A DNA stretch of 64,000 bases from Actinomyces sp. zg-332 (lineage in GTDB: Bacteria; Actinomycetota; Actinomycetes; Actinomycetales; Actinomycetaceae): contig NZ_CP064951.1 in NCBI RefSeq assembly GCF_011751945.2, positions 186,001 to 250,000 of the forward strand, read 5' to 3'. The notes under the pieces are model-generated. The model saw nothing but the letters and a program-made list of their open reading frames with translations. It ran no database searches and had not been told where the DNA came from. Made by a program: the position numbers and the translations under genes. Shown here piece after piece: positions 1-37,494 of the stretch. Every line of letters begins with the position of its first letter. Within the stretch, counting starts at the first letter, position 1.

Positions 1-3000
1 CCTTAACGAATCTTGTAGAAAACCCTTCAAGGCAGGGACCTGACTGGCCTCGTAGTTGGAAAAATGGTTACACTCATTGGTTGAGTGTTCGTATGGTTAA
101 TAAACCATTTGATGAAACACAAACTGTTACTGCTCGTTATATTGTTGATGCAGGTTTGCCAACTGAAAGAGAACTTACTCCGCGTGAAGTTAAGTTTGCT
201 GTAAGAGCGAATTACTTTTCTCCAGGTGGTGGATTTGAGGCTTGGAAAGATAATTTAAATGGTGGCGGTTCATACCCTATAAATTATGATATAAGTGAAG
301 GTAATTACTCTATTACGGGTGATACTATATCGGATAGACGATATGATCAAACTGAAAATGGTTTATACTACCGTGTATATATGCGTGCAAATAATAATGG
401 TTCAGCCTTTGATAACCCCGAAAATGGTAAAGTAACTGCCCTTTATAAGATTGAAGATATTCGATCAAGTCTTGATAATGATAAGAGAACTAGTTACAAG
501 TCATTCCAGTTTAAAGGAATAAATGGACATGGAAATATAAATTCTTTCTCAGAAGAGAGAAGAACGCAAATTCAACAAGAACTAGTTGATTCCATCAATA
601 ATACTCCTAACGTTTTGTATGGTGTTAAAGATGATGGAACAAAGGTAGAACTTGCTAAAAATGTTCAACTGGAACAGAAAATAGATATTAATGATCCTAA
701 AGCTGAATATGCAAAACTACTTCTAGAATTTAGTAAGCCTATTGTTCTCAATAACATGGTTCTCACTTATAATATTGGGTTAGCTCCTACTGCCGATGAA
801 ATTCAAAAATTTAAAGACCATGTGTACACAGATCGACAAGAATATCGTGGTAAAGCTAATTTCTTAATTCGAACAAGTGAAACAGTTACCGATGATGAAT
901 CGCAGGCTAAATGGCATAATACAAACGATACTTATGCATATACAAGCCTAGAACCAATTTCACCTAAAGCAGTTATAAATGGTGCTTCTTCAAATGAGCT
1001 TAGAGTGACGTATTCAAAGCAAGGTGCTACCTTTACATATTGGTCCCAAGCCCAATTGTCAACTGACTATGGTCTATGGGGTGCGATGGGTAGCCAGCCT
1101 ATTAAAAATGCTAAGTTAATACAGTTAATTCCTGAAGGTTTCAACTATGTTCGTAAACATAGTCAATATTGGTACGGTAAAAATATTGAAGAGCCTGAAG
1201 TAATAAAAAATTACAAGAATACGGGTAAAACAGCTGTAATCTATACCATCCCTGAGATGATTCCAAACAATTCTAACTTAAGGGCAATAGGGATTAGAAC
1301 AACACTTGAAGCTACTCCGTATGCTAAGCGTGGTGCAAATAATCCAATTGAAACATACTTTATGTATGATAAGAATGATATTATTACAGAATATCAATCA
1401 TGGATGAAAACTAATGACTCATTAGACATCGATAATGATGGTGACAGAGAAGAACGCGTACTTGTACACAGAGCAAATGTTAACTATGTTCCACCTTTGG
1501 AATTAATCGTTAAGAAAGAAGTTGGGTATGATACTTCTGCTTTCGGTCTATCTACCACAGGTGACTTAGGATACAACTTCTTCTATCGTGTAAATATTTT
1601 CAACAACACAATTGGTGAAGTAAATAGTGTACATGTAATTGACGTTTTACCTTATAAAGGTGACCACGCTATTGTTCCTAACGATTCTGGGCAATATTTA
1701 CAACGTAATTCTAAGTTTGCTACTCCGCTCTCTGCAAGTATTGAATCAGTACCTGAAAATGCTACTGTTTTGCAACGCTTTAACATTCTATACAAACTAG
1801 CTCCGCAAGGTGATGATTTAGCAAGCGTTACAGATGGTGGATGGGTTCCTGCTGACCAAGTTAGCGATTTTAGCCAAGTAAAGAGCTTTAAGCTAGAACT
1901 AAAGTCAGGTTCAACTATTGCTTCGAAGGAAGAAGTTAACCTTATAGTTCCAAGCAAGATTCCATATGATACTTCGTTGACTCCAGGAGAATGTGCTATA
2001 AACTCTGCGGCTGTTTCAACTGATGGAACAATCTTCTCTGAAGGTAACCAAGTTTGTGCCACATACACAAAGTACAAAGTTGATGGTGTATTCTTCAAAG
2101 ATTTAAATAAAGATGGTATTAAAGGTGATACAGAAGATCCTGTAGCTGGTAGAAAAGTTGAGTTAATTGATGCTGAAACAGGAAATGTTGCACTAGACTT
2201 CAATAATCAGCCAATACCATCAGTTACAACAGATGCTGAAGGTAAATACCATTTCGAAGTCTACAAGCGTGGTAGTTATAAAATACGTTTCACTAAAGCA
2301 GATGATGAAGAATATTCTGCTGAAAGTAATAGAAAATTCAATGGTAACAATGTTACGGATACAGCCGATAACGAAGGTACTACATACGACTTTACTTTGA
2401 ACCCAGCAGCAGATTCAGCTATTTTGAACGCTGGTATTATTGCTGATAAGCGTAACGTAAAGGTTCTTAAAGTATCTTCCGAACTAGACGAACAAGGAAA
2501 TAATATTCCTCTATCTGGTGTTCCATTTGAGTTGAAGAGCAATACAGATGAATCAATTAAGTTTGAAGGTACGACAGATAGCTCAGGTAATATTGTGTTC
2601 CCTAACGTTTTGTTTGGTGAATACACATTGACTGAAAAATCTGTACCAGAAGGCTACCAAGCAAATTCTCTAACTCGTGTTGTAAACGTAAACGGTGACC
2701 CACTAGAGGTAATTAAAGTTGTCAATGATGCAATTATTCGAGACGTAAAACTCAAGAAAGTAGATGCTGACGATAATAATCTTCCTTTAGAAGGTGTTAA
2801 GTTCGGATTATTCAAGGGCGATGCTTCAACTGCTGAGTACGAAGCAACTACTGGTACCGATGGTGTTGCAACCTTTAGTAACGTGAAGTATGGAGAATAC
2901 AAGTTGAAAGAAATTTCAACAATTAAAGGTTATGCTCTAAATACTTCAATAAATAAGACTGTAAGCGTTCGTGAAAATGGTGATGCCTTAGATTTAGGAA

Positions 3001-5831
3001 CGATTACTAACTCTAAGATCAAGGGCAGCATAGTTGTTACTAAGTCTGATAGTGATGACGAGAATGTCAAGCTTGAGGGTGTTGTGTTTGCTTTGAAGAA
3101 GGGTGAGAACGAGGTTGCGACCGCTACAACTAACGATCAGGGTGTTGCTACTTTCAACAATGTTGTTTACGGTGAGTATACTTTGGCTGAGAAGACTCCT
3201 CTTGAAGGATATTTGCCATCTACTCGTACTGAGACAGTAAATATTGATTCTGATGGTAAGAGTGTTGCTTTTGCTGATTGGAAGAATACTAAGATTAAGG
3301 GAAATATTAGTTTGAGCAAGGTTGATGCTGATTCTAATGAACCTCTTGCTGGTGTTGTATTTGCTTTGAAGCAAGGTGACAAGGAGATAACTACTGCAAC
3401 TACTGGTCAAGATGGTAGTGCAGTGTTTAGTAATGTTGCCTATGGTGATTACACTGTTGTTGAAAAAACAGCTCTAGTTTCACACGTCTTGGATACTACT
3501 ACGGTTCATCCAGTAAGTATTCGTGAAAATGGTACAACAGTCGCATTAACGCAAGCACCTATAACTAACGTTATGAAGAAGGCTCCTGTTGTTTTGACTA
3601 AGACTGATGTCGATAGTGGTGAACCTTTGGCTGGTGTCAAGTTTGAGTTGCGTAAGGGTAATGAGGTAGTTGCTTCTAAGGTTACTGATGTTGAGGGTAA
3701 GGTTACTTTTGCTGATGTTGCCTATGGTGACTATACCTTGGTTGAGACTGAGACTGTTGCTTCACACGTTTTGGATCCTACTCCTATTGCTGTTCAGGTT
3801 CGTGAGAATGGTGTGACTGTAAATAAGAGTGCTACTAACGTTATGAAGAAGGCTCCTGTTGTTTTGACTAAGACTGATGTCGATAGTGGTAAGCCTTTGC
3901 AAGGAGTTACTTACGAACTACGCCAGAACGGTGAGGTACTTGCCTCTAAGGTTACTGATGCTGAGGGTAAGGTTACTTTTGCTAGTGTTCCTTATGGTGA
4001 TTACACTCTAGTTGAGGTTCAAGCTCCAGAGTCTTATGTTTTGGATCCTACTCCTATTGCTGTTCAGGTTCGTGAGAATGGTGTGACTGTAAATAAGAGT
4101 GCTACTAACGTTATGAAGAAGGCTCCTGTTGTTTTGACTAAGACAGATGTCGATACACACGAACCTTTGCAGGGTGTTACTTATGAACTTCGTAAGGGTA
4201 ATGAAGTAGTTGGTACTCGCGTTACTGATGTTGAGGGTAAGGTTACTTTTGCTAGTGTTCCTTATGGTGATTACACTCTAGTTGAAACAGCAACATTAGT
4301 TTCACACGTTTTGGACTCTACTCCTATTGCTGTTCAGGTTCGTGAGAATGGTGTGACTGTAAATAAGAGTGCTACTAACGTTATGAAGAAGGCTCCTGTT
4401 GTTTTGACTAAGACAGATGCTGATACACACGAACCTTTGCAAGGCGTTACCTACGAACTACGTAAAGGAAACGATGTAGTTGCTTCTAAGGTTACTGATG
4501 TTGAGGGTAAGGTTACTTTTGCTAGTGTTCCTTATGGTGATTACACTCTAGTTGAAACAGCAACATTAGTTTCACACGTTTTGGACTCTACACCAGTTTC
4601 TGTTCAGGTTCGTGAAAACGGAGTACAAGTTGATAAAGAGGCAACAAACGTTGCCAAGAAGTCAACCATTGTTGTCACGAAGAAGGATAAAGAACTAGGT
4701 GCTGAACTTGCTGGAATTACGTTTGAATTGCGTGATAAAGACGGCAATCGTGTAGATAGTGATAAGACTAACGAACAAGGTAAAGTTACATTCAGTAACA
4801 TTCGCTATGGTGATTACACGGTTGTTGAAACTGAAACTATAGATTCACACGTTTTGGACTCTACACCAGTTTCTGTTCAGGTTCGTGAAGACGGTGCAGT
4901 AATTGAAAAAGAAATAACAAATGTAGTAAAGAAATCTACAATAGTTCTTACAAAGACAGACAAAGACAGCGGTCAACCTTTGGCTGGTGTTAAGTATGAG
5001 TTGCGTCGTCCACACAATCAGAGTGTTCCAAGTTTATTCTATGGTGATTTAGTAAGAATTGTTGATCCTTCAGCATCCCTTCCTAATGAAGATAGTTCAG
5101 CTTCAGCTCCTGTTTCAGCAGTGAGCGATAGTGACTCGCCATCAACAGAGGCAAATACCACAGATTCAGACAACACAGATTCAAGTACTACAGGATCAAA
5201 CAGTGATGAAAACTCTTCAACGCAGCCTGTGGACTACGATGTTATTGCAACAGCAGTTACAGACTCTGAAGGTAAAGTCAGCTTTGCCGATGTTCCTTAC
5301 GGAGACTATGAATTGGTTGAGACTCAGACCCTAGAGGAATATGTTTTGGATTCGACACCTATAAGTGTTGAGGTTCGTGAAGACGGTCAGACTATTCAAA
5401 AGAGTGCTACCAACGTTATGAAGAAGTCAAAGATTGTTTTGACTAAGACTGATAAGGGCAGTGGCGAGCCTTTGGCTGGTGTAACATTTGAGTTGCGTGC
5501 TAAGGCTAATGGTCGTGTTGTTGGAACTAGTGTTACTGATGCTCAGGGTAAGGTTACTTTTGCTGATGTTCCTTATGGTGACTATGAGTTAGTTGAGACT
5601 AAAGCTAAAGCTGGTTACGTTTTGGATTCGACACCTATAAGTGTTGAGGTTCGTGAAGACGGTCAGACTATTCAAAAGAGTATGAGTAATGTTAAGAAGC
5701 CTGTTGTTCTTCGTAAACTACCTGCTACTGGTGTCGATGAGGGACTGTTTACTGGCTTAGTAACATTATTGTTTGCCGGATGTGTCTTTGGTCTTGTTAG
5801 TCGAAAAGGACGTAATAGCAGCCAAAAGTAA
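1..5831 (+). CDS. Giant LPXTG-anchored surface protein with SpaA/Cna_B repeats (5' end outside window)
   Basis: The frame is open from base 3, so the gene starts outside the window; the first in-window start-like codon (TTG at 81) is internal. About 1,940 residues are visible. The first ~2 kb has no domain I can name, apart from a DUF11-like stretch near 1495-1960. An SdrD_B-like module with a DLNKDGIKGD calcium-type motif lies near 2071-2440. Eleven SpaA-type prealbumin modules follow (2455-5690), each opening with a KTD-like lysine segment and closing with a YxLVE-type glutamate, as in modules that form Lys-Asn isopeptide bonds. The C-terminus has LPATG (5718-5732), a hydrophobic segment and a basic tail, so it is a sortase substrate. 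By family it should be a cell-wall adhesin or fibrillar stalk. A strong terminator follows the stop. No sortase gene is nearby. Confidence 0.93.
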   Translation, partial: LTNLVENPSRQGPDWPRSWKNGYTHWLSVRMVNKPFDETQTVTARYIVDAGLPTERELTPREVKFAVRANYFSPGGGFEAWKDNLNGGGSYPINYDISEGNYSITGDTISDRRYDQTENGLYYRVYMRANNNGSAFDNPENGKVTALYKIEDIRSSLDNDKRTSYKSFQFKGINGHGNINSFSEERRTQIQQELVDSINNTPNVLYGVKDDGTKVELAKNVQLEQKIDINDPKAEYAKLLLEFSKPIVLNNMVLTYNIGLAPTADEIQKFKDHVYTDRQEYRGKANFLIRTSETVTDDESQAKWHNTNDTYAYTSLEPISPKAVINGASSNELRVTYSKQGATFTYWSQAQLSTDYGLWGAMGSQPIKNAKLIQLIPEGFNYVRKHSQYWYGKNIEEPEVIKNYKNTGKTAVIYTIPEMIPNNSNLRAIGIRTTLEATPYAKRGANNPIETYFMYDKNDIITEYQSWMKTNDSLDIDNDGDREERVLVHRANVNYVPPLELIVKKEVGYDTSAFGLSTTGDLGYNFFYRVNIFNNTIGEVNSVHVIDVLPYKGDHAIVPNDSGQYLQRNSKFATPLSASIESVPENATVLQRFNILYKLAPQGDDLASVTDGGWVPADQVSDFSQVKSFKLELKSGSTIASKEEVNLIVPSKIPYDTSLTPGECAINSAAVSTDGTIFSEGNQVCATYTKYKVDGVFFKDLNKDGIKGDTEDPVAGRKVELIDAETGNVALDFNNQPIPSVTTDAEGKYHFEVYKRGSYKIRFTKADDEEYSAESNRKFNGNNVTDTADNEGTTYDFTLNPAADSAILNAGIIADKRNVKVLKVSSELDEQGNNIPLSGVPFELKSNTDESIKFEGTTDSSGNIVFPNVLFGEYTLTEKSVPEGYQANSLTRVVNVNGDPLEVIKVVNDAIIRDVKLKKVDADDNNLPLEGVKFGLFKGDASTAEYEATTGTDGVATFSNVKYGEYKLKEISTIKGYALNTSINKTVSVRENGDALDLGTITNSKIKGSIVVTKSDSDDENVKLEGVVFALKKGENEVATATTNDQGVATFNNVVYGEYTLAEKTPLEGYLPSTRTETVNIDSDGKSVAFADWKNTKIKGNISLSKVDADSNEPLAGVVFALKQGDKEITTATTGQDGSAVFSNVAYGDYTVVEKTALVSHVLDTTTVHPVSIRENGTTVALTQAPITNVMKKAPVVLTKTDVDSGEPLAGVKFELRKGNEVVASKVTDVEGKVTFADVAYGDYTLVETETVASHVLDPTPIAVQVRENGVTVNKSATNVMKKAPVVLTKTDVDSGKPLQGVTYELRQNGEVLASKVTDAEGKVTFASVPYGDYTLVEVQAPESYVLDPTPIAVQVRENGVTVNKSATNVMKKAPVVLTKTDVDTHEPLQGVTYELRKGNEVVGTRVTDVEGKVTFASVPYGDYTLVETATLVSHVLDSTPIAVQVRENGVTVNKSATNVMKKAPVVLTKTDADTHEPLQGVTYELRKGNDVVASKVTDVEGKVTFASVPYGDYTLVETATLVSHVLDSTPVSVQVRENGVQVDKEATNVAKKSTIVVTKKDKELGAELAGITFELRDKDGNRVDSDKTNEQGKVTFSNIRYGDYTVVETETIDSHVLDSTPVSVQVREDGAVIEKEITNVVKKSTIVLTKTDKDSGQPLAGVKYELRRPHNQSVPSLFYGDLVRIVDPSASLPNEDSSASAPVSAVSDSDSPSTEANTTDSDNTDSSTTGSNSDENSSTQPVDYDVIATAVTDSEGKVSFADVPYGDYELVETQTLEEYVLDSTPISVEVREDGQTIQKSATNVMKKSKIVLTKTDKGSGEPLAGVTFELRAKANGRVVGTSVTDAQGKVTFADVPYGDYELVETKAKAGYVLDSTPISVEVREDGQTIQKSMSNVKKPVVLRKLPATGVDEGLFTGLVTLLFAGCVFGLVSRKGRNSSQK
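3570..4650 (+). repeat. 270-bp tandem repeats encoding SpaA modules 6-9
   Basis: The segment encoding NVMKKAPVVLTK recurs near 3570, 3840, 4110 and 4380, exactly 270 bp (90 codons) apart, and a diverged copy starts at 4650. Stretches of about 90-100 bp spanning the end of one module and the start of the next are nearly identical between copies, while module interiors differ. This is the pattern left by recent duplication and gene conversion. Flanking modules are homologous but more diverged. Confidence 0.92.
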
Positions 5832-6271: not shown

Positions 6272-11339
<5,068 letters not shown>

Positions 11340-11459
11340 ACATGTAAACAAAAAAATTTTTTTTTGGGATTGTATGTATTGTTTTCTGACAAAGTGTTTT
11401 GGTGTTCGCGTTTTACTATATGGTTCATGACCAACCCGTCGGGGTGTGGTTTGATAGGT

Positions 11460-11579
11460 TTTTGCGGTGGTCATAGCGTGGGAGTTACGCCCGGTACCAT
11501 TCCGAACCCGGTAGCTAAGGCCTGCAGCGCTGATGGTACTGCACTCGTGGGGGTGTGGGAGAGTAAGTCACTGCCGCAA
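11460..11579 (+). rRNA. rrf: 5S ribosomal RNA
   Basis: A 5S rRNA of about 118-120 nt. The ends TTGCGG and CCGCAA pair to form helix I. The core CCATTCCGAACCCGG and the GATGGTACTGCACTCGTGGG segment match actinobacterial 5S. Last gene of the operon, about 120 bp after 23S. Confidence 0.95.
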
Positions 11580-12888: not shown

Positions 12889-13850
12889 GTATAAAAGAAC
12901 GAGGAACACGGATTATAATTTTGCTCTAGTTTTAACTTTTGCTTTTAGACCACATACTTCACATATGGGCGAACAATTAGCCATACCGAAAGAAAATACC
13001 CTACGTAACCACTACACTAAAAGAATCATTACAACACTACAAACAATTCGCTATACATAAACATAAACACTCACCACACCCACAAATATTCATTACACTA
13101 CAAAAAACTAAACTATACAGAGATGAAGAAATAATCGTATGCTTTTAAACCACACAAAAATCTATATAAATAGATAACAAAGACCAATTATTACCTTGCT
13201 AACTTTCATTCTACCAATATTTTTCCTCCCAAATGTCTGCCTCTTTATAAAATAAACAAGACACAACACGTAAAAACCACCACACACATAACTAGAAGAA
13301 AATCTGAAAGCATGATGTTATATTTTCTTCTCTCATATTTTAAAAACCACATATCTCCACTCCTAAAAGGGAGGGTATGAATGCCTATCCTAATACACAA
13401 AAACCCAAACAATAATCATAAACCAATACAAATACTTTTCTACAACAATCCGTAAAACGCCAAGATATCAATCCAAAAACATCGATATTAATAACATACG
13501 TACATTATCATAAAATTACCATACTGAGCTTTTCTGTATTCCTTCTCTGGTAAAACGGAATTAATTTTTTGCCTCAACACGAGTAATAATATACGTTATA
13601 AATGCTTTATTGTAAGACTAGTATCGAACCTCTTAAAAAATAAAACACATAAAATATAACGAAATAATTAAGAAAATGTAATTCATCAAAAATATTATTA
13701 AAAAAATTACTTATTGTTTTATATATGATAAAATTTTGTTACATATATTTAGACAGAAAACATAGATAATAAATCTTATTTATGTATAAGTCTGACATTG
13801 ACTTTTAAGTGCTGTTATATGAATAGTCAGTGAACTCAATAAGGTTGAAA

Positions 13851-15512
13851 ATGAAAAAAGGTTTTATAAGAAAAGCAGTATGTACTGTATCAGTTGCTAC
13901 ACTAGCTTGGGGTATTTCAACTCCTGCTTTTGCTGCTGATCCTGCACAGTCTAATCTACCTGCAGTAAATGCTCCAGCACCTTCATGGGCTGGTAATGTT
14001 CAATTTGTAAATCAGTTGAACTTAACAGATAAAACATACAGAACTTTTGATGTAACTACTACTAAGCCATTTGCTAATCCGACTGATCAACTTGGAAATG
14101 CAACTACCGAGCAAGGTCTTTACAGGAGCTTAGTAGCTAATTTTGTTTGCTGGTCAACTGAACCACAGGATGCAAGTGGTAGTATTCCATCTACTGCTAG
14201 AATTTTTAGAGCAAACGATTCCATAAAGACAGCTTTCCCTCAAGGTTTAAAGGGTGGGGAAAAACTTTACGCTGTTTACGTAAGTGTTGCTGATGCTACT
14301 CGCATTAATGAGTATTTTAATGGTGGTAACGACTCAGTTAATTTGGGTGGACCAGTTAACAAAGAAAACGTTGTTACTATCGATAAGAATGTAAATAGTG
14401 AAGACGTGCTTCCAAATACTGACAAAGTACGCGAATCAACTGGTGTGGAATCAGATGAGATTGCTACTAATCGTGAACTACGTACGATCATTGATAAGTA
14501 TGTAGCTAAGAACGATGTTGATACAATTAACGAAGTTGTTATGAAAGCAAACTTCGATATGGAAAAGCGTATTGCCTTACTAGTATACGATAACCCAGTG
14601 TTTGGTTACGAAGGTAAGCGCGTTCTTACAGAAAATTACTCTACTTTGACAAACTGGAACTTCAATAAGGGTAGAGAAGCTGGTTATACATATGTTGACC
14701 TAGTTGTTACTGTAGACAAGCAAATTGAAACTCCAAAGATGCCATACCTAAGATTTAGCGGTCATTCATGGCGTCCACTATATGTTTTGAGTCCAGATCG
14801 TAGTGAAGCTTTGGAAATTTTCAACCCAACCACTGGTGATAGCTTAGGTAATACAAAGGATTCTTTCAAGACTTTGGTCAATAACACATCAGAAAACGTT
14901 GAATTCAAAGTTGCTAATCCAAAGCAGTACAATACATTAATTATCAGAACTATTCTACGCGATGGTCAAGAACGCATCGGAAACGTAGTTGCTGATGATT
15001 CATCAAGCATTGCTGAAAAGATTGTAAGCAAGATGGAATTAGTTGCTTTGGATTCTAAAGAGTTGATGGGCAAGTATGGTCTGTCTAAAGAAGAAGCTTA
15101 CAAGCATGTTTACAAGATTACTGATGCCGAAGCTAAAAAATTAGCAAAAACACAAGGTGAAGAAACAGTCAAGATTGCAGGTTTTATTGAAGGTGTTGCT
15201 CGTAGCTCAGTAGGAACAATAAGTGGTTTAGGTAATACAGAAAGCTTTACAGAAATTAAGCCTGTGCCATCAAATGTTCTTCGTTTGGGATATGTAATGG
15301 ATGAACCAGAAGCTCCAAAGCCAGAAGAACCAAAGAAAGAAGCTCCAAAGCCTCAACAAAAGCCAGAAGAACTAAAGAAAGCTAAGCCAGTCTTGGTAAA
15401 GAAGGAACTAGCTAAAACAGGTGTTGCTGGTTTTGACGCAACTGTAGTTGCTATTGCTGCTCTAGCTGGACTTGGTCTTGTAGGCGTAGGTCTACGTAAA
15501 AAGCAGAAGTAA
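13851..15512 (+). CDS. Secreted, cell-wall-anchored protein with LAKTG sorting signal
   Basis: I chose ATG 13851 because AAGG lies 7 bp upstream; a GTG at 13830 is in frame but lacks a site. The 553-residue product starts with a signal peptide ending at TPAFA-AD. It has no named domain overall; residues ~95-145 (FVCWSTEP ... LYAVYV) look like a degenerate InlB-type repeat. Residues ~245-355 contain EAGYTYVDL and HSWRPLYV, matching a segment of the neighbouring wall protein at 17025. A Pro/Lys/Glu-rich wall-spanning linker follows. The C-terminus has LAKTG, a hydrophobic helix and RKKQK. LAXTG is the form favoured by class E housekeeping sortases of actinobacteria. Probably an adhesin or structural wall protein; the ligand is unknown. 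Confidence 0.9.
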   Translation: MKKGFIRKAVCTVSVATLAWGISTPAFAADPAQSNLPAVNAPAPSWAGNVQFVNQLNLTDKTYRTFDVTTTKPFANPTDQLGNATTEQGLYRSLVANFVCWSTEPQDASGSIPSTARIFRANDSIKTAFPQGLKGGEKLYAVYVSVADATRINEYFNGGNDSVNLGGPVNKENVVTIDKNVNSEDVLPNTDKVRESTGVESDEIATNRELRTIIDKYVAKNDVDTINEVVMKANFDMEKRIALLVYDNPVFGYEGKRVLTENYSTLTNWNFNKGREAGYTYVDLVVTVDKQIETPKMPYLRFSGHSWRPLYVLSPDRSEALEIFNPTTGDSLGNTKDSFKTLVNNTSENVEFKVANPKQYNTLIIRTILRDGQERIGNVVADDSSSIAEKIVSKMELVALDSKELMGKYGLSKEEAYKHVYKITDAEAKKLAKTQGEETVKIAGFIEGVARSSVGTISGLGNTESFTEIKPVPSNVLRLGYVMDEPEAPKPEEPKKEAPKPQQKPEELKKAKPVLVKKELAKTGVAGFDATVVAIAALAGLGLVGVGLRKKQK

Positions 15513-15600: not shown

Positions 15601-17024
15601 CATACTTCTAGTAAGGTGATGTTCTTAACTTAGAATTTGTGCTGATGAAATAATTTTTGTGATGTTCATAGTGGAAAAATATCTTTGGTGTTGTTTCCAT
15701 TTCAAACCTAGTAACTAATGTCTGCAACTTTGTTTTTGAAAATATTACTCTATTTGTGTTTTTGTTTTTTAAAACTTTTCAATAAGAGTAATCGTAAACC
15801 TTTTACAGTACTATGAAAATAAATACACAATACAGTTATTTCTGCGTATAAAATCATATTCTACTACCTATGAGCTCTATGAGAAATTACTGCTTGTATA
15901 GTTGCCTTTTATGTATTACTCTTTGATATTTCGTTTCGGAGACTTGAGCTATAATACCCTTTTAAAGAAATTCCGTTTTTCACATATTTGGTAGACAAGG
16001 GTGGTTTAGGTGTAGGCTTATTCTCTTATATATAGATTTGTGCTCTTTTGTTTATATTACGAATAAAAAGTTGAGTAAAGGATTGCCTTTAAAGTATTTC
16101 TACTTTTATGATTTCAAGACTTTTCTCAGGGTTTGGTAGCTCTTATTTTGACGGATATTATAGTTATTCTTGTGAATCTTATTTGTGATACAACTTTGCT
16201 TAATATAAGTAATATTTGCGCCTTCTTTAAAGTATTTTTCTCATTCAAGGATTCTATTCGGATTATTTTCTTGGTAGTGCTTTTAACCGTCTAGCTTGCT
16301 CTCTACCCTATGAGCTTGTGGCTTATGCCCGTTTCATAAGAATTTTAGTAATACTGTTGTTAAGTAAATATCTTGGTATTCAGTTTTGTTATAGTTTTGA
16401 TTTTAAAAATTCTTCATTTTATGAGATATGTTGAATACGTAAATCTTGAATATGTCTATACTTCTCTATAATCAAGTTATATAAATTGTATTTACTCCTT
16501 ATTTGATATACTTTTCATTGAAGTTGAATATTTCCTCAAATTTTTCTCATATAAAGTTTTATACAGCTTAACAATCTGTCTTACTGGTTTATTTGTGGAA
16601 TTTTTAAGAACTTGCTTTATTTGTTTTCAGTAAATTTTCCCCTTTGTCCAATTTGATGTTTTACGTAATTTATTTTGCACTAGTTTTGTTTATGTTGTAT
16701 TTGTTATATTGCTTTTTTGAATTGGTTGCATAGGAAAATCTTACAGAAAACCACAGTAAAGAATGGAAATAATTCTAATATTGCAGAGTTCGTTTTAATG
16801 CTATAAAGTAAATTTTGGATTATTTGTTGAATGGATAAATTAAAAATATTGATGTTATTTTTGTTAATAATAAAAATATGTGTGGTGTAATAAAAGTATA
16901 TTAAATATAATAGTAACGATTGTGAATTTGAGGGGTGTTTACAAAAAGTTTGTAAAATTCCTTTATGAACCAACCACTAGTTATTTGAATACTACGTTAA
17001 TACCTTATGGTAGGTAGGGAATTT
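15601..17024. other. 1.4-kb noncoding region between two surface protein genes
   Basis: AT-rich and T/G-biased on the plus strand, with no convincing gene. An 89-residue frame on the minus strand near its end has no ribosome-binding site and low-complexity content. A perfect inverted repeat lies at 16938-16956, near where the promoter of the next gene should be. I see nothing else I can support. Confidence 0.6.
16938..16956. promoter_or_regulatory. Perfect inverted repeat, possible operator
   Basis: TTTACAAA-AAG-TTTGTAAA: two perfect 8-bp arms around a 3-bp centre, 69 bp upstream of the start codon at 17025. Size and symmetry fit a binding site for a dimeric transcription factor. The regulator is unknown. 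Confidence 0.4.
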
Positions 17025-19787
17025 ATGAAGAAAAATAGAATATTAGTGGCACTTTTAGTTATTTTTGCTTTTCTTGTGCCATCTGTACCAGCTTATGCTA
17101 GCTCGGGTAAATTAATAGTTACTGTTAATGGTTTACCATTTATTGGTAGTTTTAATATGGATATCCCGTATAGTTTTTTCATTAATGAGCACAAAACCGC
17201 TGAAGAAACTTTGCCAGGTCAGCCAGTAAAACAGAACAGTAATTTTAATAATCTAGATGCTACTAGGCATGCTGTTGTAAATGCACCAGCTGAAGGTGGA
17301 AAGTTTGATTTTGATGCTACTTTCTATATGAAACAAAGCACAGATTTTCCATTTCGTGGATTTCTTGTTCAGTATGTACAGAAGCATTTGTTTGATGCAT
17401 TAGTTAAACCATCAAATGAACAAATTGCTGCAATGCCTAAAACTAAAGAAGCCGGTGTAGCCTCCTATGTTGATTTGAAGGCTATAATTGACGACAGAAT
17501 TACAGCAGCTGAAAATATATCTGCTTATTTTAAGTCTTACTCTTGGAGACCTGTATACGTATTTGATGAAAATTACAATTTATTAGCAGATGTTCACGAT
17601 TCTTATAATGTCGATGATGAGATTAAAAATATAACTTTCCCGTCAAACGGAAAGCATACTTATATTATTAGAACAGTTCCTGTTGCTGGAAAAGATTTCA
17701 CAAAAGAACAACTAGATGCTCCTATGACTCTTGGCTTTAATCCTGATGGTAATAATAACTTTACTATTTCACGTGAAGTAGCTAATCAGCTAGCTGAAGC
17801 ACGTAGAGGCATGACTGAAGCAGATATTGCTGAAGAAAAACGAATTTTAGCTAAGAAAGATAAGCTTACAGACGATGAAATTGCTACTTTAAAGCGTTTC
17901 AACTTGTATACTCATGGTAATATTTCGGGTCAAGTTACTGGTACTGTTACAGCTACAGCATTGGGCAAAACGCTAACACGTTCAGCATCCGCAGTTGTTG
18001 ACGATAAGGTTGTTCCAGCAGGTATTGCTGTCACATACGAAAATCCAAAGCTAACATTTGTTCGTAACTATGATGCTAACGATGAAACAAAAGTTGGTAA
18101 CCCAGTATATGTAGAGTACAACAAGACAGCCGAGGGTGATGTTTTGCCAGATAGCGTACCAGCTGATCCTACTCGTGATGGTTACAAGTTTATTGGGTGG
18201 GCAACTACACGCGATGCAACTGCTGCAGACTTTGATGCTAATGCACCTGTTACTGAAGATAAGACTTACTATGCGATTTGGAAAGAACAAGTTAAGGTTA
18301 CTTTTGATAGTGCTGAGGGTACTGCTGTAGATTCTCAGACTTTCGATAAGGGTGGTAAGGCTACTCTTCCAGATCCTGCTCCAACTCGTGATGGTTATAA
18401 GTTTGTTGGTTGGCAAAAAGATGGTGTCGATTACAACTTTGACGATGCTGTTGAAAATGATATTACTTTGAAAGCTGTTTGGAAAGAGCAAGTTACTGTT
18501 ACTTTCGACAGCGCTGGTGGTTCTAATGTCCCGCCTGTAACTGTGGATAAAGATAGTACAGTTTCTGCTCCAAGTCCTGCTCCTACTCGTGATGGACATC
18601 GATTTGTTGCTTGGCAGAAAGATGGTACTGATTACGATTTTAGTGCCGCAGTTACTGGAAATATAACTTTGATAGCTAAGTGGGAGAGAGAACAAGTTAC
18701 TGTTACTTTCGATAGTAATGGTGGTTCTGCAGTACCTACAGAAACTGTTGGCAAAGGTGATGTTGTAGCTGCTCCAACGGCTCCAACTCGTGCAGACTAT
18801 GAGTTTGCTGGTTGGGAAAAAGACGGTGTTACCTATGACTTCAATAGCCCTGTTAACGAAAACATCACTTTGAAAGCTAAGTGGGTTAAGGAAAAAGTTA
18901 CCGTAACTTACGATAGCAATGGTGGTTCCGATGTTCCTGCTTCTACTCTTGAAAAGGGTGAGAAAGTTACTGCTCCAACCGCTCCTACTCGTGATGGACA
19001 TCGATTTGTTGCTTGGCAAAAAGATGGTGTTGATTACAACTTTGAAGATGCAGTTACTGAAAATATCACTTTGAAAGCTGTTTGGAAAGAACAAGTTACT
19101 GTTACATATGACAGTGCTGGTGGTTCTAATGTAGATGCACAAACTTTTGATAAGGGTGGTAAGGCTACTCTTCCAGATCCTGCTCCTACTCGTGATGGTT
19201 ACAAGTTTGCTGGTTGGGAAAAAGACGGTGCTACCTATGACTTTGACACTCTTGTCAATGAGAATATTACTCTAACTGCTAAGTGGGAGAAGGTTGAAGA
19301 TAAGCCACTTCCTCCAGTGGTAGAAAAAGTTAAGGTTACTTTTGATAGTGCTGGTGGTTCTGCTGTAGCTGAGCAAACTTTTGATAAGGGTGGTAAGGCT
19401 ACTCTTCCAGATCCTGCTCCTACTCGTGATGGTCATAAGTTTGTTGGTTGGCAAAAAGATGGTGCTGATTACAACTTTGATAACGTGGTAAATGAGAACA
19501 TTACTTTAACTGCTAAGTGGGAGAAGGTTGAAGATAAGCCACTTCCACCAGCTGATAAAGACGATAATGCTCCTAAACCAAAACCAGATACGACTCCAAA
19601 GCCTCAGCCAAAGCCTGAACTTACTCCAAATACAACTGTAACTCCTGAAAAGTCAGGAAAAGTTATGTTGGTAAAGAAAGCAACTTTGCCTGAAACTGGT
19701 GTAAATGGTTTAGTTGGAACACTTATTTTGATCGGTATCCTAGGTGCCGTTGGTCTTATCGCTTTGATAATCCGTAAAAAGAAATAA
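17025..19787 (+). CDS. LPXTG-anchored protein with seven InlB-type (Listeria-Bacteroides) repeats
   Basis: ATG 17025 is preferred over an in-frame ATG at 17007 because AGGGA precedes it closely and the signal peptide (MKKNRILVAL ... PAYA) then starts normally. The product is 920 residues. Residues ~90-215 carry EAGVASYVDL, YSWRPVYV and IIRT, matching the unnamed module of the protein at 13851. From about residue 340 there are seven repeats of the InlB B-repeat / List_Bact type, each with VTFDSxGGS, PTRDGYxFxGW and a final KW or VW. These fold as beta-grasp stalk units. A Pro/Lys-rich linker, LPETG, a membrane helix and IRKKK follow. Repeats are ~200 bp apart, the last 234 bp because of a linker. 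Likely an adhesin held off the wall by the stalk. Confidence 0.92.
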   Translation: MKKNRILVALLVIFAFLVPSVPAYASSGKLIVTVNGLPFIGSFNMDIPYSFFINEHKTAEETLPGQPVKQNSNFNNLDATRHAVVNAPAEGGKFDFDATFYMKQSTDFPFRGFLVQYVQKHLFDALVKPSNEQIAAMPKTKEAGVASYVDLKAIIDDRITAAENISAYFKSYSWRPVYVFDENYNLLADVHDSYNVDDEIKNITFPSNGKHTYIIRTVPVAGKDFTKEQLDAPMTLGFNPDGNNNFTISREVANQLAEARRGMTEADIAEEKRILAKKDKLTDDEIATLKRFNLYTHGNISGQVTGTVTATALGKTLTRSASAVVDDKVVPAGIAVTYENPKLTFVRNYDANDETKVGNPVYVEYNKTAEGDVLPDSVPADPTRDGYKFIGWATTRDATAADFDANAPVTEDKTYYAIWKEQVKVTFDSAEGTAVDSQTFDKGGKATLPDPAPTRDGYKFVGWQKDGVDYNFDDAVENDITLKAVWKEQVTVTFDSAGGSNVPPVTVDKDSTVSAPSPAPTRDGHRFVAWQKDGTDYDFSAAVTGNITLIAKWEREQVTVTFDSNGGSAVPTETVGKGDVVAAPTAPTRADYEFAGWEKDGVTYDFNSPVNENITLKAKWVKEKVTVTYDSNGGSDVPASTLEKGEKVTAPTAPTRDGHRFVAWQKDGVDYNFEDAVTENITLKAVWKEQVTVTYDSAGGSNVDAQTFDKGGKATLPDPAPTRDGYKFAGWEKDGATYDFDTLVNENITLTAKWEKVEDKPLPPVVEKVKVTFDSAGGSAVAEQTFDKGGKATLPDPAPTRDGHKFVGWQKDGADYNFDNVVNENITLTAKWEKVEDKPLPPADKDDNAPKPKPDTTPKPQPKPELTPNTTVTPEKSGKVMLVKKATLPETGVNGLVGTLILIGILGAVGLIALIIRKKK
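18291..19540 (+). repeat. Tandem ~200-bp repeats encoding InlB-type stalk units
   Basis: Repeat starts (VTVTF/VKVTF segment) fall at 18291, 18492, 18696, 18897, 19095 and 19329, giving spacings of 201, 204, 201, 198 and 234 bp. A seventh, more diverged unit precedes them (~18040-18285). Some segments, such as the one encoding FDKGGKATLPDPAPTRDG, are almost identical between units, pointing to recent exchange. Confidence 0.9.
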
Positions 19788-33624: not shown

Positions 33625-33661
33625 AAAATTTCCTCGAGGTAGTTTGCCCCGAGGAAATTTT
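33625..33661. terminator. Bidirectional terminator between ABC-F and SHIRT adhesin genes
   Basis: AAAATTTCCTCG (33625-33636) and CGAGGAAATTTT (33650-33661) form a perfect stem flanked by A-runs and T-runs, between two convergent genes. Confidence 0.83.
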
Positions 33662-33690: not shown

Positions 33691-36600
33691 TTAGCTATCT
33701 TTTCTCTTTGCTGAGATAAGTACTAAACCAAAACCTACTATCAGCAAACTTAGAAGTGAATAAGAAACTGAACCGTCGAAACCTGTTTCAGGAAGCTTAG
33801 CAGATTTCTTTGGTTTTTCTCTCAACACAACATTTGGTTTCACAGGATCTTTAACAAATTCCCACTTACCAATGAAATGAGCATCAGCTTTATCTATAAT
33901 CTTAGATTCAGCATCCCAAGTTTTCCATACCCACTTACCATTTTCAGCCTTTACGACAACATCAGTCTTATCGAAGTTGTCTGTTGGGTTTACTTTTGTT
34001 CCGTTTAGTTTGTCTGTTTGGTTTGCTGGTGTTTTGTCCTTGATTGTTTGTGGTAGGTCTTTTCCAGCTGTGCCTGAGACAAACTCGTGTGTAACGTTGT
34101 ATTTGTTTTGTGTAAATACCCATGTTCCGACAAAGTGTGCGTCTTTTTTGTTGATGGTGTCTTCTTGTTTGTCCCAGCTGGTCCATTTCCAGATACCATC
34201 GTTGTCAGCGTCTTCAACATCTGTTTTGTCGAAGTTGTCTGTTGGGTTTACTTTTGTTCCGTTTAGTTTGTCTGTTTGGTTTGCTGGTGTTTTGTCCTTG
34301 ATTGTTTGTGGTAGGTCTTTTCCAGCTGTGCCTGAGACAAACTCGTGTGTAACGTTGTATTTGTTTTGTGTAAATACCCATGTTCCGACAAAGTGTGCGT
34401 CTTTTTTGTTGATGGTGTCTTCTTGTTTGTCCCAGTTGGTCCATTTCCAGATACCATCGTTGTCAGCGTCTTCAACATCTGTTTTGTCGAAGTTGTCTGT
34501 TGGGTTTACTTTTGTTCCGTTTAGTTTGTCTGTTTGGTTTGCTGGTGTTTTGTCCTTGATTGTTTGTGGTAGGTCTTTTCCAGCTGTGCCTGAGACAAAC
34601 TCGTGTGTAACGTTGTATTTGTTTTGTGTAAATACCCATGTTCCGACAAAGTGTGCGTCTTTTTTGTTGATGGTGTCTTCTTGTTTGTCCCAGTTGGTCC
34701 ATTTCCAGATACCATCGTTGTCGGTGTCTTCAACATCTGTTTTGTCGAAGTTGTCTGTTGGGTTTACTTTTGTTCCGTTTAGTTTGTCTGTTTGGTTTGC
34801 TGGTGTTTTGTCCTTGATTGTTTGTGGTAGGTCTTTTCCAGCTGTGCCTGAGACAAACTCGTGTGTAACGTTGTATTTGTTTTGTGTAAATACCCATGTT
34901 CCGACAAAGTGTGCGTCTTTTTTGTTGATGGTGTCTTCTTGTTTGTCCCAGTTGGTCCATTTCCAGATACCATCGTTGTCGGTGTCTTCAACATCTGTTT
35001 TGTCGAAGTTGTCTGTTGGGTTTACTTTTGTTCCGTTTGGTTTGTCTGTTTGGTTTGCTGGTGTTTTGTCCTTGATTGTTTGTGGTAGGTCTTTTCCAGC
35101 TGTGCCTGAGACAAACTCGTGTGTAACGTTAAAAACAGTTATCCAACCTGCATAAGTATGTAACTCATTCGTTGGTAGTATACCTGTGATAGCTGCTGTG
35201 CTATCAGTAAACTTTTCCTCTTCGAACTTGAATTTACGATCCCCATGTTCAGATTCATTATTCAAATCACAAATGAGCTCTTTCACATTGTCGTAGTACC
35301 ATCCAGTGAATGCGAAACCTGTACGTGAAGGAACATCACTAATCTTAGTCATCTGTTCTGGATCAGTCCAAGGAGCTGTGGAACTATAAACATCGTAAAG
35401 TTCTTCTTTTTCAGTTGAATTATCATCAAATTTAGCATCATCAGCATTAACGTGATAAACCATCTTTGCACGTTGGCCTACTACAATGGTCTTATTTTCT
35501 GGGTTGTAAACATAGTCCCATTTACCAATTGAAGTATTATCTTCGTATGCTGCTACAGGATTAGAATCATCAGCTTTCCTTGTTATATAGTGCAAGAAAT
35601 TAGCGTCAGATTTCACTGGTTCGTAGTTTCCATCACCTTTAGCAACAACATAGCCAACATGCCTTTCAGCGTTTTCTGGATATAAATTATGATCTTTAGC
35701 AACTTCGCTAATAGATACATCAATACGTTTAGTAAGAGTTCCAGTTAAAACAACTGCTGATTGACCATCGATAACGTGAATATCACCAGAAGTAGATATA
35801 TTGGCACGAGGCGTTATAATAACGTCTTTCTTTGCATAAATGTTAATACCAGCGTATTCACCAGCACCTTTAGTTGGGTGTTGAATACCACTCCACCAAG
35901 CACCGCCAACGAAGTGTCCACGCCACAAATCGTTCAATGTCATATCATCTAGCTTTAGATAACCGTCATTGAATATTGTGCCGCCAGCTTGTAGACCAAT
36001 ACCACCGTTTAGAACTGCACCACCGCTAATAGTTGTGCTGCCTGCATTGTAGATTAGACCACCAGCAGGTGATTGGCCTCCATTACCGTCAGCATCGTTG
36101 CCCATAGTGGTACCTTCAATGTTCAAGGTAGCACCCTTAGAAACATAAATCATACCACCAGCTTGACCTTCGTCACCTGAAGGAGCACCCCATGCCTGAG
36201 TATTTGCCTTGTGGAATTTGCCTCCACGTATAGTCACTGAAGCAGTTGATGGTTTACCGAATCTACCTCCGATTGAAATCATACCGCCAGTCTTATCAGC
36301 ATGGAAATTTGAAATATTTGTATTTTCAATTAAGGCTGTTGCACTTGAACCATCTTCGAAACAGATAGCACCACCAAATGTTGCTGAACCATTACCGTTG
36401 CCAACACCTCTACCAGTCAATGTTGAGTTCTTCAAAGATAGATTACCGCCACCAACAACGTCTATTACGCCACCAGCATGAATAACTTTACTGTTACCAG
36501 AAACAGTGAAAGTGCCATTATCTATTTCTAGATTTGAATGAGCGGAAAGAATTGATCCACCACTAATGCCATAAGCATCACCTAAGTTTTCCATCTTGTA

Positions 36601-37494
36601 TACATCGTTTGTGCTTGTAGCTTTTTTGTTTCCGGAGATTCCAGATAAGTATAGAGCACCACCTGTGTTGAAAGTAGCTGCAACGTTATAAGTATTATTT
36701 GAAGAGGTGAAATTTGAATTTACAATGTGGAAAACGCCACCTTGATTAGAATTTGCGGTGACTTGGTTATTATGGTTACCAGTAAAAGTTGAACCACTTA
36801 CAGTTACATTTTCGCTGTTTTCAATATAAGCAAAACCACCACCAGATAAAATACCAGAAACGTTATTAGTTGCTACAGAATCAACGATTTCAACTAGTTT
36901 TGTATGATAAGCATATATTGCACCACCATGACCATTCATACCGTCACGAGGTTTAGGGTTAGGTAATATGCCACGGTTATTTTCAAAAGTTGTGTTATGG
37001 AACTTTACAGTTGAGTCTACACCTGCATATATTGCACCACCATCACTGTTACCTGAATTTGGATCACTAACTCCGTTTTTCCAGCTTATACCATTGGAAA
37101 TTTTACCATTTCTAAAATCCAACTTAGCACCATCAGTGAGGCGTAATAACCTACCATTGTTATTACCGTCAAGGTTAATATTGTCAAACTTCAAAGTTGT
37201 GTTAGATCCACTTAATCTAAACATTGAATCTACATCACCAGAAGTTATTGTGTTACCACTTGTGCTAGAGATTGTTACTTCACGTGCTGAAGTAAAACTT
37301 ACTTCTATTGGCGAAGTTACTTGAAAATTTGAAGTTATATTTATATTAGTTTCGCCACCAGATAGGGCTGCTCTAAGCTGTGCTTCAGTAGAAACATCAG
37401 TTGTAGCATAAGAAACATTAACATTAGGAATGCCGAGTAAAATTAGGCTTACTACGGATAAAACTGTTAGAAAATTTGCGACTCGTTGCCTCAT
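33691..37494 (-). CDS. LPXTG-anchored beta-helix adhesin with five tandem SHIRT repeats
   Basis: ATG 37494 has AGGGA 7 bp upstream. The 1,267-residue protein has a signal peptide (~1-31). Residues ~40-620 form a right-handed parallel beta-helix, with repeated GGAIYA, GGMIYV and GGTIFN-type turns and N/S/T-rich rungs, like pectate-lyase-fold adhesins. An InlB-like FTGWYY segment lies near 730-780. Five SHIRT-type repeats of 86 residues follow (NVTHEFVSGTAGKDLPQTIK ... HFVGTWVF), then LPETG, a membrane helix and SAKRKDS. SHIRT repeats make long, stiff stalks in streptococcal periscope adhesins. The gene interrupts the conserved ABC-F/glmU order and is on the opposite strand, which suggests insertion. 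Its repeats use A/C-ending codons unlike the rest of the gene. Confidence 0.92.
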   Translation of the reverse strand: MRQRVANFLTVLSVVSLILLGIPNVNVSYATTDVSTEAQLRAALSGGETNINITSNFQVTSPIEVSFTSAREVTISSTSGNTITSGDVDSMFRLSGSNTTLKFDNINLDGNNNGRLLRLTDGAKLDFRNGKISNGISWKNGVSDPNSGNSDGGAIYAGVDSTVKFHNTTFENNRGILPNPKPRDGMNGHGGAIYAYHTKLVEIVDSVATNNVSGILSGGGFAYIENSENVTVSGSTFTGNHNNQVTANSNQGGVFHIVNSNFTSSNNTYNVAATFNTGGALYLSGISGNKKATSTNDVYKMENLGDAYGISGGSILSAHSNLEIDNGTFTVSGNSKVIHAGGVIDVVGGGNLSLKNSTLTGRGVGNGNGSATFGGAICFEDGSSATALIENTNISNFHADKTGGMISIGGRFGKPSTASVTIRGGKFHKANTQAWGAPSGDEGQAGGMIYVSKGATLNIEGTTMGNDADGNGGQSPAGGLIYNAGSTTISGGAVLNGGIGLQAGGTIFNDGYLKLDDMTLNDLWRGHFVGGAWWSGIQHPTKGAGEYAGINIYAKKDVIITPRANISTSGDIHVIDGQSAVVLTGTLTKRIDVSISEVAKDHNLYPENAERHVGYVVAKGDGNYEPVKSDANFLHYITRKADDSNPVAAYEDNTSIGKWDYVYNPENKTIVVGQRAKMVYHVNADDAKFDDNSTEKEELYDVYSSTAPWTDPEQMTKISDVPSRTGFAFTGWYYDNVKELICDLNNESEHGDRKFKFEEEKFTDSTAAITGILPTNELHTYAGWITVFNVTHEFVSGTAGKDLPQTIKDKTPANQTDKPNGTKVNPTDNFDKTDVEDTDNDGIWKWTNWDKQEDTINKKDAHFVGTWVFTQNKYNVTHEFVSGTAGKDLPQTIKDKTPANQTDKLNGTKVNPTDNFDKTDVEDTDNDGIWKWTNWDKQEDTINKKDAHFVGTWVFTQNKYNVTHEFVSGTAGKDLPQTIKDKTPANQTDKLNGTKVNPTDNFDKTDVEDADNDGIWKWTNWDKQEDTINKKDAHFVGTWVFTQNKYNVTHEFVSGTAGKDLPQTIKDKTPANQTDKLNGTKVNPTDNFDKTDVEDADNDGIWKWTSWDKQEDTINKKDAHFVGTWVFTQNKYNVTHEFVSGTAGKDLPQTIKDKTPANQTDKLNGTKVNPTDNFDKTDVVVKAENGKWVWKTWDAESKIIDKADAHFIGKWEFVKDPVKPNVVLREKPKKSAKLPETGFDGSVSYSLLSLLIVGFGLVLISAKRKDS
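33850..35133 (-). repeat. 258-bp SHIRT tandem repeats, nearly identical
   Basis: Five units with a period of exactly 258 bp; the segment for YNVTHEFVSG recurs at about 34091, 34349, 34607, 34865 and 35123. The central copies differ by only a few bases (for example EDTDNDG versus EDADNDG). The copy nearest the wall anchor is diverged in its second half. Such identity favours copy-number change by recombination. Confidence 0.95.

Follow-up and report, generated by a model that had tools for sequence, protein, structure and literature searches.

The closest described counterpart of the protein analysed here is Sgo_0707/FibA of Streptococcus gordonii and S. sanguinis, a Periscope Protein in which an N-terminal functional head is presented on a tandem stalk of near-identical SHIRT domains and held by an LPXTG anchor; rods of two and seven SHIRT domains have maximum dimensions (Dmax) of 107 and 371 Å, respectively (PMC8201768). 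Surface beta-helix domains are likewise found in pneumococcal PfbA and in the binding regions of the L. reuteri SRRP, both without a SHIRT stalk. Exchange of heads and stalks has already been proposed for fibrillar adhesins (PMC8286594, PMC9210967), and adhesive-domain clusters 1, 10 and 12 of one survey group heads that are predicted to be beta-solenoids, are carried by repeat stalks and show evidence of such exchange (PMC9210967). The present study examined a 64,000-nucleotide stretch of the Actinomyces sp. zg-332 genome (the window; contig NZ_CP064951.1, positions 186,001 to 250,000), in which a minus-strand gene at positions 33691-37494 shares with Sgo_0707/FibA the N-terminal head, the near-identical SHIRT stalk and a putative LPXTG-type anchor. 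Its product differs in carrying a predicted beta-helix head and an InlB-like neck instead of N1-N2 head domains, and is likened to a Periscope Protein by its repeat pattern in one genome. Its head resembles the survey clusters, whose stalk is SasG G5-E, by description only, and has no detectable sequence relation to PfbA or SRRP. With a probability of roughly 0.6, the gene is read here as encoding a sortase-anchored surface protein with a beta-helix head on a length-variable SHIRT stalk; as judged from its sequence, it is a strong candidate for an extension of the periscope principle to the Actinomycetaceae. The gene and its repeats are as follows.

33691..37494, minus strand: adhesin gene, 1267 amino acids, a single open reading frame (ORF) with an AGGGA ribosome-binding site just 5' of the ATG
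34873..35130, minus strand: SHIRT repeat R1, residues 789-874, placed by Pfam and unit alignment
34615..34872, minus strand: SHIRT repeat R2, residues 875-960, 1 nt different from R1
34357..34614, minus strand: SHIRT repeat R3, residues 961-1046, 2 nt different from R2
34099..34356, minus strand: SHIRT repeat R4, residues 1047-1132, 1 nt different from R3
33841..34098, minus strand: SHIRT repeat R5, a hybrid, the same as R4 over 34098-33971 and diverged over 33970-33841

Five stretches of the protein matched the SHIRT family PF18655 (whole-protein E 1.9e-104, 342.9 bits), and a single 86-residue unit scored 76.2 bits against a cut-off of 22.4, bearing out the SHIRT identity proposed in an earlier reading made from the letters alone (the sequence-only reading). 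When one unit was searched against Protein Data Bank (PDB) sequences, the only significant matches were the three Sgo_0707 SHIRT entries (7avh, E 4.2e-45); the units are 53-55% identical to the Sgo_0707 domain, the value for 7avh being 55%. A model of the head with R1-R2 also matched 7avh (Foldseek E 3.6e-05, 50% identity), although this fold match leans on sequence, the predicted local distance difference test (pLDDT) being moderate (54-73) in the SHIRT part.

The array spans residues 789-1218 (DNA 35130-33841) with an exact period of 258 bp, as had been claimed. The accompanying claim of five near-identical units holds for R1-R4, which are 98.4-99.6% identical in DNA (pairwise differences of 1 to 4 nt; 99.6, 99.2 and 99.6% between adjacent units), and fails for R5, which shows 0/128 differences from R4 followed by 63/130 (76% overall identity; Fisher p 1e-23). 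Distinguishing single-nucleotide polymorphisms (SNPs) occur in graded order in R1, R3 and R4. The diverged half of R5 shows how far SHIRT may differ within the same protein, which points to recent recombination, rather than tight protein constraint, behind the near-identity elsewhere; the abrupt break in R5 and the near-identity of R1-R4 together match the pattern that recombination within the array should leave and that conserved protein sequence alone should not. The pattern by which periscope proteins are recognised, tandem highly identical domains encoded by long near-identical DNA repeats, is thus found here in R1-R4, with R5 half-identical.

In the proposed mechanism, the beta-helix head, closed by its cap and joined by an InlB-type neck, is predicted to bind a polymer (glycan or matrix) on a host or bacterial surface, while the five SHIRT domains would form a stiff stalk setting the distance of the head. 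Scaling from the published 107 and 371 Å rods gives about 5.3 nm per domain, and hence about 26 nm for five. Homologous recombination between the 258-bp units may add or remove domains, each gain or loss shifting the head by about 5 nm relative to the cell surface, and anchoring to the wall would proceed through the one sortase encoded in the host genome. The head itself would be a mobile module that has passed from one to the other of Actinomycetota and Bacillota and has been combined with various stalks and anchors. Its parts are the following.

35875..37395, minus strand: right-handed beta-helix head, residues 34-540, from the AlphaFold2 model and fold matches
35470..35874, minus strand: C-terminal cap closing the helix, residues 541-675, where conservation of the head is highest
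35131..35469, minus strand: neck, residues 676-788, InlB B-repeat-like (List_Bact_rpt), from fold and profile

The beta-helix head of the sequence-only reading was recovered by structure prediction. AlphaFold2, supplied with an alignment of 15 relatives, gave a long right-handed beta-helix that spans residues 32 to about 520, most of it at pLDDT above 90, and comparison with solved beta-helices (VIA-align) returned Z scores of 18-24, the best being the passenger of the Vag8 autotransporter (Z 23.9). Further fold matches included phage tailspikes, alginate epimerases, alginate lyases and glycosidases, together with PfbA (Z 19.5) and SRRP (Z 18.6-19.7). No Pfam or NCBIfam family reached its cut-off in any of the 15 head-family members, nor did the head profile match any PDB sequence at E 0.1 or better; by these sequence comparisons the head is a new, unnamed family. 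Conservation is concentrated in the cap, where 37/124 compared columns are conserved at ≥90%, against 7-18% in helix segments. Folded apart with its neighbours, the cap aligned weakly with the autochaperone region of IcsA (Z 6.3) and with antigen 43 (Z 5.0-5.2), matches that cover 116 residues with Z below the safe level; neither Pfam nor profile searches linked the cap by sequence to a known autochaperone family. For the neck, the fold comparison gave Z 6.8 to the InlB B-repeat and a profile search E 0.011 to InlB 1m9s, so that the profile supports the InlB reading; PF09479 is present in 7/15 head-family members and lies below its cut-off in the window protein.

A contig scan with the window head alone returned no relatives; a scan with an alignment of five heads gave 17 loci. 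Host included, the head occurs in 7/213 Actinomycetaceae genomes. The Actinomycetota bearers in the scan of named genomes are Actinotignum schaalii, A. timonense, Gleimia coleocanis, a Schaalia sp. and an Actinomycetaceae metagenome-assembled genome (MAG), and the Bacillota bearers are Gemella sanguinis, Ezakiella, Ligilactobacillus ceti, Fenollaria, Aedoeadaptatus, Peptostreptococcus porci, Suipraeoptans, Parvimonas micra and a Clostridia MAG. No full-length head was found in 245 other Actinomycetota genomes, where the matches were short generic beta-helix stretches, and none in viral contigs or plasmids.

Nine other genomes of two phyla (three Actinotignum, one Actinomycetaceae MAG and five Bacillota genera) carry the same head on a SHIRT stalk, a recurrence suggesting that the pairing is functional. 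The head-homologous SHIRT proteins (Actinotignum, Gleimia, Gemella, L. ceti, Ezakiella, Fenollaria, Aedoeadaptatus) have 35-40% head identity to the window protein; the Gleimia head and a SHIRT-LPKTG piece sit at the ends of different contigs and are presumed to belong together. They differ in having 1 to 3 SHIRT copies where the array is resolved, against 5 in the window gene, in repeats that are 52-96% identical in DNA, and, for three Bacillota members, in ending with SLH domains instead of a sortase motif. In Schaalia, Peptostreptococcus porci, Suipraeoptans and Parvimonas micra (33-34% head identity), Cna_B domains replace SHIRT under the same head.

The sequence-only reading had found this design notable outside the Firmicutes, a view that does not survive the survey: besides the head-SHIRT pairing in Actinotignum, the MAG and the five Bacillota genera, SHIRT occurs in 24/213 Actinomycetaceae genomes (8/36 genera) and in 6/245 other Actinomycetota genomes, and a SHIRT stalk in an actinobacterium is therefore not new. 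SHIRT is a general-purpose stalk in the Actinomycetaceae, where it also bears an alpha-L-fucosidase (7 SHIRT), M26-type metallopeptidases and P1-type adhesin heads (L058 5209-9129, L057 6913-11844, L063 5759-9622, L059 8689-10734, L062 7316-9541). One Schaalia genome has 21 SHIRT matches (L056 1-4251, L057 6913-11844); within its protein of 10 SHIRT domains, identity is 96.7% between some non-adjacent units and 53-75% between neighbours, which suggests a higher-order repeat.

The head tree (15 rows, 877 columns) describes this sample rather than the whole family. A single clade of Actinomycetota heads was rejected by the approximately unbiased (AU) test, both for all six (p 2e-103) and without Schaalia (p 0.002); the Gleimia head grouped with Gemella (100/99), the Schaalia head fell within a Bacillota group (100/100), and stalk type changed once on the tree (support 100/100). 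Read most simply, this tree implies more than one passage of the head between phyla and a single exchange of the stalk; a head crossing phyla with changing stalk and anchor fits the exchange proposed for fibrillar adhesins (PMC8286594, PMC9210967). A bolder version of the scheme, which we put forward as speculation and think improbable, treats the head as a self-folding module, a beta-helix with an autochaperone-like cap as in autotransporter passengers, placed in Gram-positive sortase- or SLH-anchored proteins; it would travel as a unit among the Actinomycetota and Bacillota that live in mucosal communities and take any stalk, the stalk here actively changing length.

A recent arrival of the complete gene from a different genome was considered and rejected, codon use in the head being host-like (G+C content at third codon positions, GC3, 0.24; expected 0.26). 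The SHIRT unit (window 33841-35130) shows a GC3 excess (0.44 against 0.29 predicted from its amino acids, z 3.3), which the diverged half of R5 lacks. This hints weakly at import of the unit, and does no more than hint, because other window genes also attain z 3.5 in 86-codon windows.

The proposed reading is weakened by the origin of the five-unit count in the single genome of the species (and of the genus), by the Actinotignum repeats, which are about 52-54% identical in DNA and number 2 in each of three genomes, and, as regards the head, by the beta-helix folds of polysaccharide lyases and epimerases, matched at similar Z. The low identity and constant number in Actinotignum mean that not every member of the head family has a changing stalk. 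Adjacent repeats are 52-59% identical in Actinotignum and L. ceti and 87-96% in three Ezakiella-type proteins; among head-family members with resolved repeats, those of the window gene alone exceed 98% identity, which makes it the best candidate for variable length. In the Actinomycetaceae MAG, a scaffold gap of 100 N interrupts the SHIRT array, the repeats agreeing over all 53 nt comparable before the gap and the same repeat resuming after it; such a gap is the usual effect of near-identical arrays on assembly and supports length variation in part and indirectly. The head of this relative (L054 7087-9837; the same gene in L076) is also broken by an in-frame TAG, and its gene is possibly a pseudogene or else wrongly assembled.

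The alternative that survives best keeps the same anatomy and makes the stalk static, the array being a recent duplication kept alike by gene conversion, of fixed length and with no regulatory role. The three Actinotignum genomes constant at two repeats speak for it, and the few differences among R1-R4 are compatible with a single recent expansion; yet known length-variable proteins usually have near-identical adjacent domains, an arrangement disfavoured in other proteins (PMC8201768), and R5 shows diverged SHIRT halves working within one protein, so that identity is not required by function. On balance a static stalk is possible and rather doubtful.

Less probable still is a stalked enzyme, in which the beta-helix would not bind but act as a polysaccharide lyase, an epimerase or a glycosidase. 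Fold alone says nothing certain about function, and the fold matches include alginate lyases, epimerases and glycosidases; SHIRT stalks in the Actinomycetaceae do bear enzymes, as the alpha-L-fucosidase and M26 peptidase show. Against this, no enzyme family was matched by profile, the conserved residues cluster in the cap and not in the helix, and within the helix R115 and E380 are the only charged residues conserved at ≥90% over the 15 members. Because of this last observation an adhesive rather than catalytic head is favoured, though not proved. That the repeat number is an assembly artefact, with the array collapsed or inflated, is very improbable: assemblies of relatives do break at near-identical repeats (the 100-N gap in L076/L054; Gleimia contig ends), but the host genome is one 1.54 Mb contig and the SNPs of R1, R3 and R4 are graded.

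The remaining signals of the gene and its surroundings are as follows.

37402..37494, minus strand: signal peptide, residues 1-31 (MRQRV, a hydrophobic stretch, then YA), read from the sequence, with a putative cleavage site
33781..33795, minus strand: LPETG sortase motif, followed by a hydrophobic stretch and a KRKDS tail, found by inspection
33625..33661, no strand: hairpin resembling a bidirectional terminator, between the convergent ABC-F and adhesin genes (fold z -5.5)

The LPETG anchor of the sequence-only reading stands as a sorting signal by inspection, with profile scores slightly below the curated cut-offs (Gram_pos_anchor 19.2 against 20; TIGR01167 15.7 against 15.9). Its low-G+C actinobacterium is likewise correct, the host belonging to the Actinomycetaceae, the family of Actinotignum, Gleimia and Schaalia, with a G+C content of about 37%. 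The adhesin gene is convergent with an ABC-F gene and has tRNA-Gln and glmU upstream, tRNA-Gln adjoining glmU in 30/30 GlmU loci read in the family. In one relative a MarR gene, instead of an adhesin gene, stands between ABC-F and tRNA-Gln; the position is an exchangeable slot, with no mobile element shown. An antisense plus-strand ORF (33977-35155) spans the SHIRT array and owes its length to the repetition of an open stretch; only the minus strand bears a gene there.

Other surface proteins are encoded in the window, all on the plus strand. The product of 81-5831 is a second repeat-stalk surface protein, 1916 aa long; it contains 12 SpaA domains (prealbumin fold), and its gene has a tandem array with a 270-bp unit at 3564-4615 (85% matches). 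A 926-aa protein (17007-19787) has an SH3_5 domain, seven List_Bact_rpt repeats (201- and 234-bp arrays) and a near-cut-off wall anchor, and a 560-aa protein (13830-15512) shows a weak LPXTG anchor match. These three genes flank an rRNA operon at 6274-11579.

The type of SHIRT rod described here was already known; what is new is the head family, its crossing of phyla and its switch of stalk. An unnamed cross-phylum surface head, without a Pfam or NCBIfam entry, has been defined, and a head module that crosses phyla while changing stalk and anchor is of more interest than a single gene. The family also forms a natural comparison set: one head is combined with 1, 2, 3 or 5 SHIRT domains or with a Cna_B stalk, the anchor is of the sortase or the SLH type, and repeat identity ranges between 52% and 99.6%, so that the proposition that near-identical repeats mean variable length becomes testable within one head family. 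For the Actinomycetaceae, the candidate gene would bring to a species of this family the periscope principle, for which streptococci and staphylococci have supplied most of the evidence.

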